21,528 nucleotides of DNA from a virus. Both the position numbers and the translations under genes were made by a program. This document shows positions 15,226-21,528 of this stretch, piece by piece. Below the pieces are notes generated by a model. The model saw nothing but the letters and a program-made list of their open reading frames with translations. It made no database searches and had not been told where the DNA came from. Position 1 is the first letter of the stretch. Each line of letters begins with the position of its first letter. The stretch spans positions 1 to 21,528 of the IMG/VR virus record IMGVR_UViG_3300018424_004545; one strand, 5' to 3'.

Positions 15226-16311
15226 ATGGAAAACATCGCAAGTCGCACTGTAAGTCCTAATAATGCTAAAAAGAGTATTATTAGAGCATTCAAAAAGAAA
15301 CGTCCTTTATTTTTATGGGGCGCACCAGGTATTGGTAAATCAGACATTATTCACCAGATTGGTGAATTCCTAGACGCTCACGTTATTGACGTTCGTTTGT
15401 CACTTTGGGAACCTACTGACATTAAAGGTATTCCATACTATGCGGCAAATGACAACTGCATGAAATGGGCACCGCCAGCAGAACTTCCTACTAAGGAATT
15501 GGCAAAGAAATACAAGAACATTATTTTGTTCTTAGATGAAATGAATTCTGCGGCACCGGCTGTACAAGCCGCGGCATATCAATTGATTCTTAACCGTAGG
15601 GTTGGACAATATGTATTGCCAGACAACGTTTTAATTGTTGCCGCTGGTAACCGAGACGCTGATAAAGGTGTTACTTATAGAATGCCTGCTCCGTTGGCTA
15701 ATCGTTTTGTTCACTTAGAACTTAAAGTTGACTTTGACGATTGGTTTTCGTGGGCAACTGAAAACAACATCCACACTGATGTTGTAGGTTACTTAACTTA
15801 TAGCAAAAAAGACTTATATGACTTTGATCCTAAGTCACCGAGTCGTTCTTTTGCAACACCGCGTTCTTGGTCATTTGTTTCCGAGTTACTCGAAGACGAT
15901 GATGATGAGAATACCACTACCGATTTGGTCAGTGGTGCAGTAGGCGAAGGCCTTGCTGTGAAGTTCATGGCCCATCGTAAGATGGCATCACAACTACCAA
16001 ATCCCTCAGATATTTTGGTAGGTAAAGTGAAGGAGTTGAAAACTAGAGAAATCAGTGCCATGTATTCCTTGACTGTTTCACTCTGCTATGAACTGAAAGA
16101 AGCCAGTGATAAAAACGACAAGAAGTTTGACGATAAAGTTAACAACTTCTTACGTTTTGCAATGGACAATTTCGATACAGAATTGGTTGTAATGGGCATT
16201 AAACTTGCTCTTACCCAATACCAACTTCCAATCGATCCAGATGAAGTTGAATGTTTTGATGAGTTCCATGAGAAGTTCGGCAAGTACGTAACTGCCGCAC
16301 AGGCTTCGTAA
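15226..16311 (+). CDS. MoxR-like AAA+ ATPase
   Basis: A 361-residue AAA+ ATPase of the MoxR type, which act as chaperones that remodel or activate a partner, typically a VWA-domain protein. Walker A is GAPGIGKS at 32-39, Walker B is ILFLDEMN at 100-107 (Asp104, Glu105), sensor 1 is AAGNRD at 139-144 (Asn142), and the ANRF at 158-161 supplies the arginine-finger candidate Arg160. The C-terminal third is helical and charged. ATG 15226 with AAGGAG seven bases upstream, and a dedicated promoter. The next gene encodes a metallopeptidase/VWA protein, the classical partner, but a terminator and a second promoter lie between them. Confidence 0.88.
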   Translation: MENIASRTVSPNNAKKSIIRAFKKKRPLFLWGAPGIGKSDIIHQIGEFLDAHVIDVRLSLWEPTDIKGIPYYAANDNCMKWAPPAELPTKELAKKYKNIILFLDEMNSAAPAVQAAAYQLILNRRVGQYVLPDNVLIVAAGNRDADKGVTYRMPAPLANRFVHLELKVDFDDWFSWATENNIHTDVVGYLTYSKKDLYDFDPKSPSRSFATPRSWSFVSELLEDDDDENTTTDLVSGAVGEGLAVKFMAHRKMASQLPNPSDILVGKVKELKTREISAMYSLTVSLCYELKEASDKNDKKFDDKVNNFLRFAMDNFDTELVVMGIKLALTQYQLPIDPDEVECFDEFHEKFGKYVTAAQAS

Positions 16312-16316
16312 TACAC

Positions 16317-16356
16317 ATAGGGGCGGAATATTTTGGTATTTCGCCCCTATCTTTTT
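16317..16356 (+). terminator. Strong intrinsic terminator after the MoxR-like gene
   Basis: ATAGGGGCGGAATA (16317-16330) pairs with TATTTCGCCCCTAT (16337-16350) over 14 positions with one G-U wobble and a TTTTGG loop, followed by CTTTTT. It begins six bases after the stop codon. It separates the ATPase transcript from the next promoter. Confidence 0.9.
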
Positions 16357-16358
16357 GG

Positions 16359-16387
16359 TTGACTTTTATCATTAAATATACTATAAT
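16359..16387 (+). promoter_or_regulatory. Sigma70 promoter for the metallopeptidase/VWA gene
   Basis: TTGACT (16359-16364), 17 bases, TATAAT (16382-16387), immediately behind the terminator. The predicted start is near 16394, so the shared leader motif begins about four bases into the transcript. Confidence 0.8.
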
Positions 16388-16397
16388 AATAACATAA

Positions 16398-16409
16398 TAA
16401 GGCACTGAG
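16398..16409 (+). repeat. Shared 12-base leader motif, copy 2 (VWA gene)
   Basis: Second exact copy of TAAGGCACTGAG. Here its last bases run into GAGGAA (16407-16412), the probable ribosome binding site five bases before ATG 16418. A protein or small RNA binding this motif would block translation directly. Confidence 0.6.
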
Positions 16410-16417
16410 GAATACAA

Positions 16418-17692
16418 ATGGCAACTACAACAGTTTTAGAAAAAGCACAAAAAGTAGATATTGAAATTACGGATGAGATGCGTAAAGAAGTTCTCGACCG
16501 TATTATTGTTGCACGAGTAGGTTTGCTATTACGTCACCCATTTTTTGGTAACATGGCTACACGTCTTAAGATTGTAGATGCTTCAGACTGGTGCCCAACT
16601 GCCGCTACAGACGGTCGTAACTTATTTTATAATGTTGCATTCTTTTCAACACTTACAAACAAGAATATTGAGTTTGTAATTGCACACGAAATTCTACACT
16701 GCGTTTACGATCATATGAGTCGTAGAGAAAAACGTGATCCGCAAATTCATAATATTGCGGCAGACTATAAAGTTAACAATATTCTTGTTCGTGATAAGAT
16801 TGGTGAGAAGCCTGCAGACATTGATATCTTCCAGGACTTTAAATACGATCCTATGTCATCAGAAGAAATCTATGATGAGATTTATAACAAATATGATGAA
16901 GAAGAATTAAAACAATTAGGTCAATTACTTGACGAACACGTTGACTGGGAACAGAAAGATGGTGATAGTCCTTCAAACAATTCAGGCGACAGTAAAAAAG
17001 AAGGTAATAAACCTTCTTACAGTAAAGATGAACTACGTAAGATACGTGACGAAATTAAAGAGTCTATGATTAGTTCGGCTCAAAGTGCTGGTGCTGATAA
17101 TCTTCCTAAAGAAGTTCAGCGTATGATTAAAGAACTTACCGAACCTAAAATGAACTGGCGTGAGTTGCTTCAGCAACAGATTCAGTCAACTATCCGTAAT
17201 GACTTTACATTTAGTCGTCCATCACGTAAAGGTTGGCACACAGGTGCTATACTTCCAGGCTTAAACTTCCAAGACACAATTGATTTGTGTATTGCTATTG
17301 ATATGTCTGGATCAATTGGTAATGATCAAGCACAAGATTTCTTAGGAGAAGTTAAAGGAATTATGGATCAATACCAAGATTACAAAATTAAAATTTGGTG
17401 TTTTGATACAGAAGTTTATAACGAACAGGATTTTGACCCGTCAACTGACGACTTGTTAAGTTATGAAATTCAAGGCGGTGGCGGTACTGATTTTATGTGT
17501 AACTGGCGTTACATGAAAGAAAACGACATTGTTCCTAAAAAGTTTATTATGTTCACAGACGGTTATACTTGGGACTCGTGGGGTGATGCAGACTATTGTG
17601 ATACAATATTTGTAATTCACTCACATCATAATAAACAACTCGAAGCACCGTTTGGGATTAGTACACACTATGAAGAAGCCAAATCCGCTTAA
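16418..17692 (+). CDS. Metallopeptidase-like plus VWA domain protein (DUF2201-like), MoxR partner
   Basis: A 424-residue two-domain protein. The N-terminal domain carries HEILH at 90-94, a zincin-type HExxH motif, in FVIAHEILHCVYDH, followed by HNIAADYKVNN at 111-121, which may give further ligands. A Ser/Lys/Glu-rich linker lies at about 181-205. The C-terminal VWA domain has the MIDAS residues DMSGS at 285-289, Thr347 in GGGTDF, and Asp371 in FTDGY. This is the DUF2201-type arrangement often paired with MoxR ATPases in bacteria. The role in phage infection is unknown; protein remodelling or metal-dependent proteolysis of a host target is a fair guess. No signal peptide is visible. Confidence 0.85.
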   Translation: MATTTVLEKAQKVDIEITDEMRKEVLDRIIVARVGLLLRHPFFGNMATRLKIVDASDWCPTAATDGRNLFYNVAFFSTLTNKNIEFVIAHEILHCVYDHMSRREKRDPQIHNIAADYKVNNILVRDKIGEKPADIDIFQDFKYDPMSSEEIYDEIYNKYDEEELKQLGQLLDEHVDWEQKDGDSPSNNSGDSKKEGNKPSYSKDELRKIRDEIKESMISSAQSAGADNLPKEVQRMIKELTEPKMNWRELLQQQIQSTIRNDFTFSRPSRKGWHTGAILPGLNFQDTIDLCIAIDMSGSIGNDQAQDFLGEVKGIMDQYQDYKIKIWCFDTEVYNEQDFDPSTDDLLSYEIQGGGGTDFMCNWRYMKENDIVPKKFIMFTDGYTWDSWGDADYCDTIFVIHSHHNKQLEAPFGISTHYEEAKSA

Positions 17693-19293: not shown

Positions 19294-20592
19294 ATGGCAT
19301 TAAAGATTAGAAGAGGTACCGAAGCGGAAAGAGCGGCACTGACCGGTGCTAATCCAGCGGCGGGCGAACCTATTTTTGTTACAGATACCGGAAAACTATG
19401 GGTTGGGGACGGTGTAACTACCGGTGGTATTGAAATAAACCCAAACATTAATCTAAATGATTTAGAAGACGTAAGCGTTGCGGCACCAGCATCCGGCCAA
19501 GTTTTAACATGGTCAACTCCAAATTCACGATGGGAAGCAACAACACTAAGTATTGCTCAAGAACTAAATGACTTAACTAACGTCGATGCCATCACAGGTG
19601 TTGCTACTAATAAAGTTTTAAAATATGATGGTACCGCTAACGGCGGAGCAGGTGGCTGGGTAGCAGGCGATGAAGCATTTTTATCGTTTGATTTAGATCA
19701 GCAATTAGCAAGTAAGAGTATTGATAACCTAGGCGATGTTAGTGTATCAGGTACTGATTCTCCGACTATTGGACAAGTACTTGCTTGGGATAATGTCTCT
19801 AGTTTGTGGAAACCATCTGATATCGATCTATCAAGTCTTTCATTAGGCAACTTGGAAACTGATATTACTGGTTCTGTCTTTGCAGATGATTCAAGTGTAA
19901 TGATTGACGGTGTTGCAGGAACTGTTAATTTATATAACGGTGTAACACGTATTGTTGATAATCAAATCTCAGTCGAAGGTGTTAACGAAGTTCAGATTGG
20001 TAACATTAACGATTCAGTTTCTAACGTATTACAAGTTATTAACGCAGACGGTTCTGAGCCAATTGAAATTATTAACATTGCAGGCACTGGAATTAATGAC
20101 AGTGCTAAGTTTACATTTACTGGACGTCACGGCGATATGGTTACTCCTGTTAAAGCAACAGCAGGTGATTATGTTGGCGTATTAAGTTCCAGATCAGTTG
20201 ACCCAGATGTTGATGGTCTCGGCAATGAAGGTAATGTTCCAAACTCAATTATTGCAATGACTGTTGACAATAATGAAACCGTTGCTAATGATACTGCTAA
20301 AGGTAAAATTATTTTCCTTAACAATGCAGGTACAGGTACAACTCCATCTTTGGTTGCGGCATCATTTGATGCACGTGGTTACTTTGCTATTAACCAAGCG
20401 ACAGTACACGTTGCAGATGCACACTTAGACGTAAACGGATTTATGAAACTAGCACCACAAACAGCAGAACCAACAGCAGTTGAAGGTATGATTGTTATTG
20501 CTGATGGTACTACTTGGGATCCTGCTTCAAAAGGTGGAGCAGTAAGTTATCCAGTGTACTACGACGGTAGTGCTTGGAACGCTTTCTATTAA
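19294..20592 (+). CDS. Tail-fibre-like structural protein with Mtd-type N terminus
   Basis: A 432-residue virion protein, probably a tail fibre or receptor-binding protein. Residues 1-45 (LKIRRGTEAERAAL, then GEPIFVTDTGKLWVGDG) match the N-terminal domain found in major tropism determinant-like and other fibre proteins. Three degenerate repeats follow, each with a LNDLxDV-type opening and a GQVLxWD...W ending (about 54-80, 91-122, 143-172). Then comes a GSVFADDSSVMIDGVAGT segment at about 193-210 and a Gly/Asn/Val-rich beta region, ending in TTWDPASKGGAVSYPVYYDG and an aromatic tail. No collagen repeat or chaperone domain is seen. It has its own leader with a late-promoter-like box. Confidence 0.8.
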   Translation: MALKIRRGTEAERAALTGANPAAGEPIFVTDTGKLWVGDGVTTGGIEINPNINLNDLEDVSVAAPASGQVLTWSTPNSRWEATTLSIAQELNDLTNVDAITGVATNKVLKYDGTANGGAGGWVAGDEAFLSFDLDQQLASKSIDNLGDVSVSGTDSPTIGQVLAWDNVSSLWKPSDIDLSSLSLGNLETDITGSVFADDSSVMIDGVAGTVNLYNGVTRIVDNQISVEGVNEVQIGNINDSVSNVLQVINADGSEPIEIINIAGTGINDSAKFTFTGRHGDMVTPVKATAGDYVGVLSSRSVDPDVDGLGNEGNVPNSIIAMTVDNNETVANDTAKGKIIFLNNAGTGTTPSLVAASFDARGYFAINQATVHVADAHLDVNGFMKLAPQTAEPTAVEGMIVIADGTTWDPASKGGAVSYPVYYDGSAWNAFY

Positions 20593-20636: not shown

Positions 20637-21302
20637 ATGAGCACACTTACACTTTATACTTCTGGTTCCACCGATATTCCAAAAAAGGTTACGCATTCTT
20701 GGGATTATATAAAAGAATGTGCAACCAAAAGCATAAAAGAAATTGGACTTACCAAAAACGATATAGTGCTCGATGTGTTCCCTGCAAACACTATTGCCCA
20801 CTACACAATCACCGCCGTTCCTGCGTTTTTAAGCGGCGCACAGCACGTTTCTAGTAACTTTAGTGCCTACACCTACCCTGAACTGTTTAACCGCGTTAAA
20901 CCGACCGTTATAGCGTTAATACCACGCCATTTAGAACTATTACTAAACGCAAAAGGCTTTGAAAACTTAGATATGAGTTGCGTCCGTTATATGGTTACAG
21001 GCAGTTCCAAAATAGAACAAAGTTTCATAGATGCCTTTAGAGAACGTGGTGTCCAAACTGTAGCAAATTGGTATGGTATGACAGAAGTGCCTCCACCTGT
21101 AATGATTGGTTATAATAGCACATCGTTTGATCTAAACACTATAAAAGATGATCACGTAATGTTTAATCCGATTGGTTTTAGTAGTTTACACGAGTGTTAC
21201 ATAAACGGAAAAGCAACAGGAGATCTGTTTGAAATGAACCCTGTGAGATTTGTTAAGAGAGCAAAAGAGTCAAATGGACAAACTTGGAAGACTAAAGTTT
21301 AG
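20637..21302 (+). CDS. Miniature AMP-forming adenylating enzyme (ANL superfamily)
   Basis: A 221-residue protein with the signature motifs of acyl/aminoacyl adenylating enzymes compressed into under half the usual 500-600 residues. LYTSGSTDIPKKVTHSW at 6-22 is the phosphate-binding A3 motif and starts almost at the N terminus. NWYGMTE at 144-150 is the A5 motif. TGDLFEM at 194-200 and RFVKRAKESNG at 204-214 match the A7-A8 hinge. The N-terminal subdomain before A3 and the C-terminal subdomain with the A10 catalytic lysine are missing. It lies behind the tail-fibre gene and overlaps the GNAT-like gene by 29 bases. It may activate an acid as an adenylate for the next enzyme; that is inference. 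Confidence 0.75.
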   Translation: MSTLTLYTSGSTDIPKKVTHSWDYIKECATKSIKEIGLTKNDIVLDVFPANTIAHYTITAVPAFLSGAQHVSSNFSAYTYPELFNRVKPTVIALIPRHLELLLNAKGFENLDMSCVRYMVTGSSKIEQSFIDAFRERGVQTVANWYGMTEVPPPVMIGYNSTSFDLNTIKDDHVMFNPIGFSSLHECYINGKATGDLFEMNPVRFVKRAKESNGQTWKTKV

Positions 21303-21528
21303 AGCATTAACTAATAATGACAAACCTGCTGTAGAAGAATTTTGTAACTCACAAAACTTCAGTAACAATACATCATTAGAAAAAATGAAATGGGACTGGT
21401 GTCCGTTTTGGTGTGCGGCATTTGACGGAGATAAAATAGTTAGTATTGCTGGCGCACACGAATTACCTGAAGTATCACCCAATGCTTATAGACTATTGTT
21501 TAGAGGCGCACAGTTGCCTGGCTACACA
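21274..21528 (+). CDS. GNAT-like acetyltransferase, N-terminal part (cut by window edge)
   Basis: ATG 21274 opens a frame of 85 codons that is still open at the last base. KFRALTNNDKPAVEEFC (8-24) is a typical GNAT opening (strand 1 and helix 1), and the stretch WCAAFDGDKIVSIAGAHELP (about 47-66) fits strands 2-3 of the fold. The acetyl-CoA loop would lie beyond the window. It starts inside the adenylating-enzyme gene, so translation is probably coupled, and the two may act on one substrate. The assignment is tentative because only the N terminus is seen. Confidence 0.55.
   Translation, partial: MDKLGRLKFRALTNNDKPAVEEFCNSQNFSNNTSLEKMKWDWCPFWCAAFDGDKIVSIAGAHELPEVSPNAYRLLFRGAQLPGYT

Follow-up and report, generated by a model that had tools for sequence, protein, structure and literature searches.

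Organization of the Locus

The window, i.e., the whole stretch of 21,528 bases that was analyzed, spans positions 1 to 21,528 of the IMG/VR virus record IMGVR_UViG_3300018424_004545. Near its end, an ORF check of the window places a gene with an ATG start and a 221 aa product at positions 20637–21302 (+); this product is referred to below as mini-ANL. A second ORF on the same strand begins with an ATG at position 21274 and stays open to the window end at position 21528. The two frames share 29 bases (21274–21302), and the same 29-base overlap is found in most of the related loci. Only the 5′ part of the second gene, which encodes a GNAT-fold partner (21274–21528, +), is available, because the record itself is a virus contig of 21,528 bases; in the nearest relatives the gene is complete, as in locus L002 (10638–11183, 182 aa). 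Directly upstream of mini-ANL, positions 19294–20592 (+) encode a 432 aa protein with the N-terminal domain of the major tropism determinant (PF18454 Mtd_N, Pfam E = 7.7e-10), and the presence of this domain makes the name "tail fiber-like" reasonable. The original prediction, made from the window alone, had described a 221-residue ANL-type protein located behind a tail fiber and overlapping a GNAT-like gene by 29 bases, which agrees with this arrangement.

A T4-type late promoter pattern was detected upstream of mini-ANL in 14 of the 63 upstream stretches. Further upstream in the window (15226–17692), an ATPase (phrog_1297) adjoins a metallopeptidase/VWA-like protein (DUF2201, PHROG name "HNH endonuclease"), and the two resemble the MoxR–VWA-like pair of large phages. 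For an upstream phage ATPase, the nearest match, with 51% identity, is the ATPase of PA5oct-like jumbo phages.

Mini-ANL Is Reduced to the Core of ANL Proteins

A Pfam search assigned residues 6–167 of mini-ANL to the AMP-binding family (PF00501, E = 1.7e-21). The match covers only positions 168–331 of the 384 profile positions; therefore, only a few residues precede the A3 P-loop in mini-ANL. The N-terminal part of ANL proteins (~175 residues) and their C-terminal lid (~100 residues) are both absent, and the same Pfam search found no PF13193 lid domain in the protein. Compared with cellular ANL enzymes, internal segments are missing in addition to both ends, and the segment between A5 and A7 is shortened. 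Sequence comparison thus confirms the protein as an ANL member cut down to its nucleotide- and acyl-binding core, as had been proposed from the single sequence. The homology is also seen when the profile of the family is compared with the PDB (ANL match, E = 4e-14) and in the predicted structure. The AlphaFold2 (AF2) model has a mean pLDDT of 89.6, and a Foldseek search with it returned hundreds of ANL-like matches with E down to 8e-11, including MenE (3ipl/5bus, TM 0.74–0.76 on the query).

The alignment of 44 sequences of the family contains 39 invariant columns. In the A3 P-loop (TSGSTDIPK, residues 8–16, 20658–20684, +), T8, S9, G10, T12, and K16 are invariant (44/44), and the second glycine of the loop is replaced by Asp, Lys, or other residues. 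The A5 motif (NWYGMTE, residues 144–150, 21066–21086, +) has invariant N144, Y146, G147, T149, and E150 (44/44), the last being the Mg2+/ATP glutamate (PMC6122825). In the A7 motif (TGD, residues 194–196, 21216–21224, +), T194 and D196 are invariant; the Asp of A7 binds the ribose of ATP (PMC3438747). The linker arginine of A8 (R208, 21258–21260, +; role from PMC6122825) is likewise kept in all 44 sequences. All of the A3, A5, and A7–A8 motifs named in the original prediction are therefore conserved throughout the family.

Across 374 ANL sequences, five residues are fully invariant: the A5 Glu, a Gly of the A6 region, the A7 Asp, the A8 Arg, and the A10 Lys (PMC6122825). Three of them, E150, D196, and R208, are invariant in the 44 mini-ANLs. 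The A6-region glycine probably corresponds to G191 by our own mapping, and G191 is kept in 42 of the 44 sequences. The remaining residue is the A10 lysine, for which mini-ANL has no lid. Since the lid with the A10 lysine is missing, mini-ANL is homologous to ANL enzymes and may work alike, yet it is no standard member of the superfamily; the terminal lysine described below is its only candidate counterpart.

Conservation and Distribution of Mini-ANL

Two scans of IMG/VR revealed mini-ANL at 94 viral loci, including the window, with identities of 47–92% in the first scan. The carriers are large uncultivated aquatic phages. Among the copies from the first scan, 64 of 65 are full length, and the single exception ends where its contig ends. 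The median dN/dS is 0.17 among 63 pairs that are 75–99% identical. Mini-ANL is thus conserved under purifying selection and is not decaying. The loss of both ends and of internal segments relative to cellular ANL enzymes could recall the decayed remnant of a full-length enzyme, a reading that the original prediction had set against its own; it fails because of this purifying selection. Intact frames, the same boundaries in 94 loci, and the invariant columns and motifs leave it practically no probability.

A search of 84,980 prokaryote species genomes found neither mini-ANL nor the GNAT partner; it used short conserved patterns, which distant relatives could escape. A cellular origin of the pair was rejected, as the prokaryote genome scans contained no relative of either protein. 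Isolate phages contain no relative of the GNAT protein and none of the c4 protein of the downstream cassette, and their ANL matches are distant and mostly of the cellular type. One deposited protein belongs to the family, namely A0A6J5L770 of an uncultured Caudovirales phage (AMP-dependent synthetase/ligase, 214 aa), which has 51% identity to mini-ANL and a TM score of 0.87.

The C-Terminal Thr-Trp-Lys Tail

Mini-ANL ends within about 14 residues after the A8 arginine. A feature overlooked in the original prediction is the Thr-Trp-Lys (TWK) sequence in this tail (residues 216–218, 21282–21290, +), which is present in all 93 complete copies and is a candidate substitute for the lid lysine. The tail is usually read in the GNAT frame as well; hence, the copies without the GNAT overlap were examined. 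Twelve distinct proteins without the overlap retain TWK, and the explanation that it is kept merely by the overlapping frame was rejected.

In a MAFFT alignment, the tail falls on the A10 motif of EntE, CaiC, and FadD. Such an alignment is weak, as sequence termini are readily matched with one another, and the column of the A10 lysine contains Lys or Arg in just 26 of the 44 mini-ANLs. For both of these reasons, the replacement of the lid lysine by the tail lysine is put forward as a hypothesis. In the AF2 model, the tail with TWK has a pLDDT below 50 and is disordered. One divergent mini-ANL (L053:9998–10714) has a rearranged region before TWK and an unrelated context, with no GNAT gene within the 3.8 kb present.

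The GNAT-Fold Partner

By sequence, the GNAT assignment is weak, with one PDB match at E = 8e-4. It is backed by the predicted fold: the AF2 model of the complete homologue from L002 (182 aa) has a pLDDT of 86.7, and Foldseek gives 2r7h as the best GNAT match (E = 7e-6, probability 1.00). At E ≤ 0.001, 93 PDB matches were obtained, and the best 50 of these 93 are acetyltransferases or complexes containing one. Structure prediction, which had been suggested as a check, thus points to an ANL core next to a GNAT fold.

The coupling of the two genes is far stronger than a single overlap could indicate. In a scan seeded with the GNAT protein, mini-ANL was found within 4 kb in 79 of the best 80 loci, which makes the two genes near-obligate partners. 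In seven mini-ANL loci, the GNAT gene has been relocated and still lies within the cassette. At the one lone GNAT locus without mini-ANL (L168:3373–4020), the place of mini-ANL is taken by an unrelated gene (215 aa) that overlaps the start of the GNAT gene; this unrelated gene is possibly a functional replacement of mini-ANL and, as such, a useful clue.

The pyrophosphate loop of acetyl-CoA binding, [QR]xxGx[GA] after beta 4, was found in none of the 60 distinct GNAT sequences. Judging from these sequences, its absence would fit a donor that is not acetyl-CoA and does not prove that CoA is unused.

The Tail Fiber Neighbor and the Downstream Cassette

In 70 of 89 loci, a fiber-like gene is found no more than 3.5 kb upstream of mini-ANL, and in 50 of 89 it is the directly adjoining upstream gene. 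This link is real but looser than the link to the downstream block of enzymes. In the 67 loci with at least 9 kb of downstream sequence, mini-ANL is followed by the GNAT gene (65/67), a radical SAM protein (66/67), a hydroxylase-type oxygenase (66/67), the c4 protein (60/67), a protein of the tryptophan halogenase family (48/67), and a short kinase-like protein (46/67). The hydroxylase-type oxygenases were counted as Asp/Asn-hydroxylase-like, mostly in 4–7 copies, or as TauD-like by eye. Further enzymes, which the original prediction had suggested looking for beyond the window, are present in related loci.

The long conserved block that adjoins the mini-ANL/GNAT pair is seen at L002:11186–20663 and in equivalents in about 60 loci. 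It contains a flavin halogenase family protein (PF04820, E = 2.6e-80), mostly four to seven paralogous Asp/Asn-hydroxylase-like oxygenases (PF05118), a radical SAM protein with a twitch domain, the 489 aa c4 protein, and the 151 aa kinase-like protein. For c4 and a further protein, c21, nothing significant was found in the PDB, Pfam, or PHROGs. The kinase-like protein (c17, L028:11637–12092) and its relatives, about 151 aa in length, are a second miniature enzyme of the block; they have a kinase-like catalytic loop (HGDW.LSN, DWDN; RIO/APH matches) and are too short for a full kinase. The WxWxIP signature is present in 3 of 36 halogenase family (c5) proteins, such as that of L089 (11128–12300), and 15 of the 36 did not fit the catalytic lysine pattern. 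Because the signature is often missing and the residue at the catalytic lysine position seems to vary, the c5 proteins may be hydroxylases, not halogenases.

Neither a lid gene nor a linked carrier protein, both of which the original prediction had considered as possible neighbors, was found. The PF13193 lid is absent from 16 related records, which reach 356 kb in length, and a carrier (PF00550) occurs in only two of the records, unlinked, about 37–38 kb away. Mini-ANL is the sole AMP-binding gene in each of the 16 records, with no second ANL gene. A crude search for conserved short ORFs encoding precursor peptides downstream gave nothing convincing, and no substrate gene for the pair was found. 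A defense-system reading was rejected, as PADLOC returned nothing convincing.

Possible Mechanism and Alternative Explanations

The likeliest reading, at about even odds, is that mini-ANL is an active minimal adenylating enzyme with the GNAT protein as its acceptor enzyme. Mini-ANL retains only the central subdomain and the beta-barrel that comes after it, the parts that hold the ATP and acid sites. It could bind ATP-Mg and a carboxylic acid and form an acyl- (or aminoacyl-) adenylate. The short flexible tail may stand in for the absent lid, and in this tail the invariant lysine of TWK could act as the A10 lysine. The GNAT-fold protein would be a dedicated acceptor enzyme that moves the activated acyl group to an amine. 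The pair would be part of a fiber-adjacent cassette of oxygenases and radical SAM, flavin-dependent, and kinase-like enzymes. This cassette probably makes a modification, or attaches one, on some component of the virion or a surface, the presumed target. The most specific version of this scheme seems unlikely as a whole: a two-gene acyl transfer invented by phages, in which a lysine in a ten-residue tail stands in for the A10 lid, the acyl-adenylate is the donor handed straight to a CoA-free GNAT, and the fiber-adjacent cassette decorates a virion or surface molecule.

A rather unlikely, if serious, alternative is that mini-ANL is a pseudoenzyme that binds ATP/AMP or an acyl-adenylate without catalysis and serves the GNAT protein or the cassette as a scaffold, a regulator, or a sensor of acyl ligands. 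The loss of the lid with the standard A10 lysine, the unmodelled tail, and the near-obligate partner gene would fit such a role, whereas all checked residues that contact ATP, Mg, and ribose are invariant, seemingly beyond the needs of binding alone, and the lysine near the end of the tail is kept in 93 of 93 copies. The constant partner could also mean that the enzyme is split, i.e., that the lid function comes in trans from a further protein of the phage or the host (the GNAT protein being one candidate) and mini-ANL is active only in the complex. A large surface of the core, normally covered by subdomain A and the lid, is exposed, and the halves of firefly luciferase reconstitute an active site when brought together (PMC4757408). 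However, the lack of PF13193 in the 16 records and the difference between the GNAT and lid folds make this quite improbable. In a further alternative, the pair would be regulatory: the GNAT protein would not receive the product of mini-ANL but would acylate one of its lysines (e.g., K218), as AcuA/Pat do with acyl-CoA synthetases. There is a precedent in the GNAT enzyme AcuA, whose acetylation target in the ANL enzyme MenE is the active-site lysine (PMC11619455). The coupled genes and the invariant lysine would suit a regulatory pair, but the canonical acetyl-CoA loop motif is missing in all 60 distinct phage GNATs, and we regard it as very improbable.

If mini-ANL is an active adenylating enzyme, it would rank with the smallest enzymes of the ANL fold that form adenylates. 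Such enzymes could then do without subdomain A and the lid, and the question of the purpose of the lid could be addressed directly in this family. Large phages would, in that case, also have an acyl-activation and transfer chemistry of their own, encoded beside host recognition genes in a block with many oxygenases and radical SAM enzymes. The mini-ANL/GNAT pair points to undescribed phage chemistry.

Comparison with Known Systems

Mini-ANL shares the core fold, A3, A5, A7, and the A8 arginine with ANL acyl/aryl-CoA ligases and NRPS adenylation domains (PF00501; MenE, FadD13, EntE). Its length is about 220 aa, whereas those proteins have about 450–560 aa, and it differs from them in the absence of the N-terminal subdomain and the PF13193 lid, the shortened A5–A7 segment, the terminal TWK tail, and its restriction to phages. 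The ANL fold itself is known. To our knowledge, and in the literature searched, its reduction to a core that ends in a conserved lysine tail, occurs only in phages, and is coupled to a single GNAT partner has not been described. No well-described phage system of this kind was found in that literature, in line with the original prediction. A0A6J5L770 is of the same family by fold and sequence and carries an automatic database name only; no description of it was found in the literature searched.

In the system of AcuA/Pat and its acyl-CoA synthetase target (Bacillus subtilis MenE/AcsA, PMC11619455), a GNAT protein likewise works with an ANL enzyme. The ANL enzyme of that system is full-length and is switched off by the GNAT with the help of acetyl-CoA; in the phages, the GNAT has no CoA-loop motif, and the two genes overlap. 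Among known contexts, the host recognition cluster of pelagimyophages (PMC7029224) comes closest. The ANL/GNAT pair was not seen in the parts of that source consulted, and the phages described here are of a different, uncultivated large type. As at the present loci, the pelagimyophage cluster is a variable island beside tail fibers with radical SAM cassettes, and an Asp/Asn beta-hydroxylase is among the genes of those phages too.
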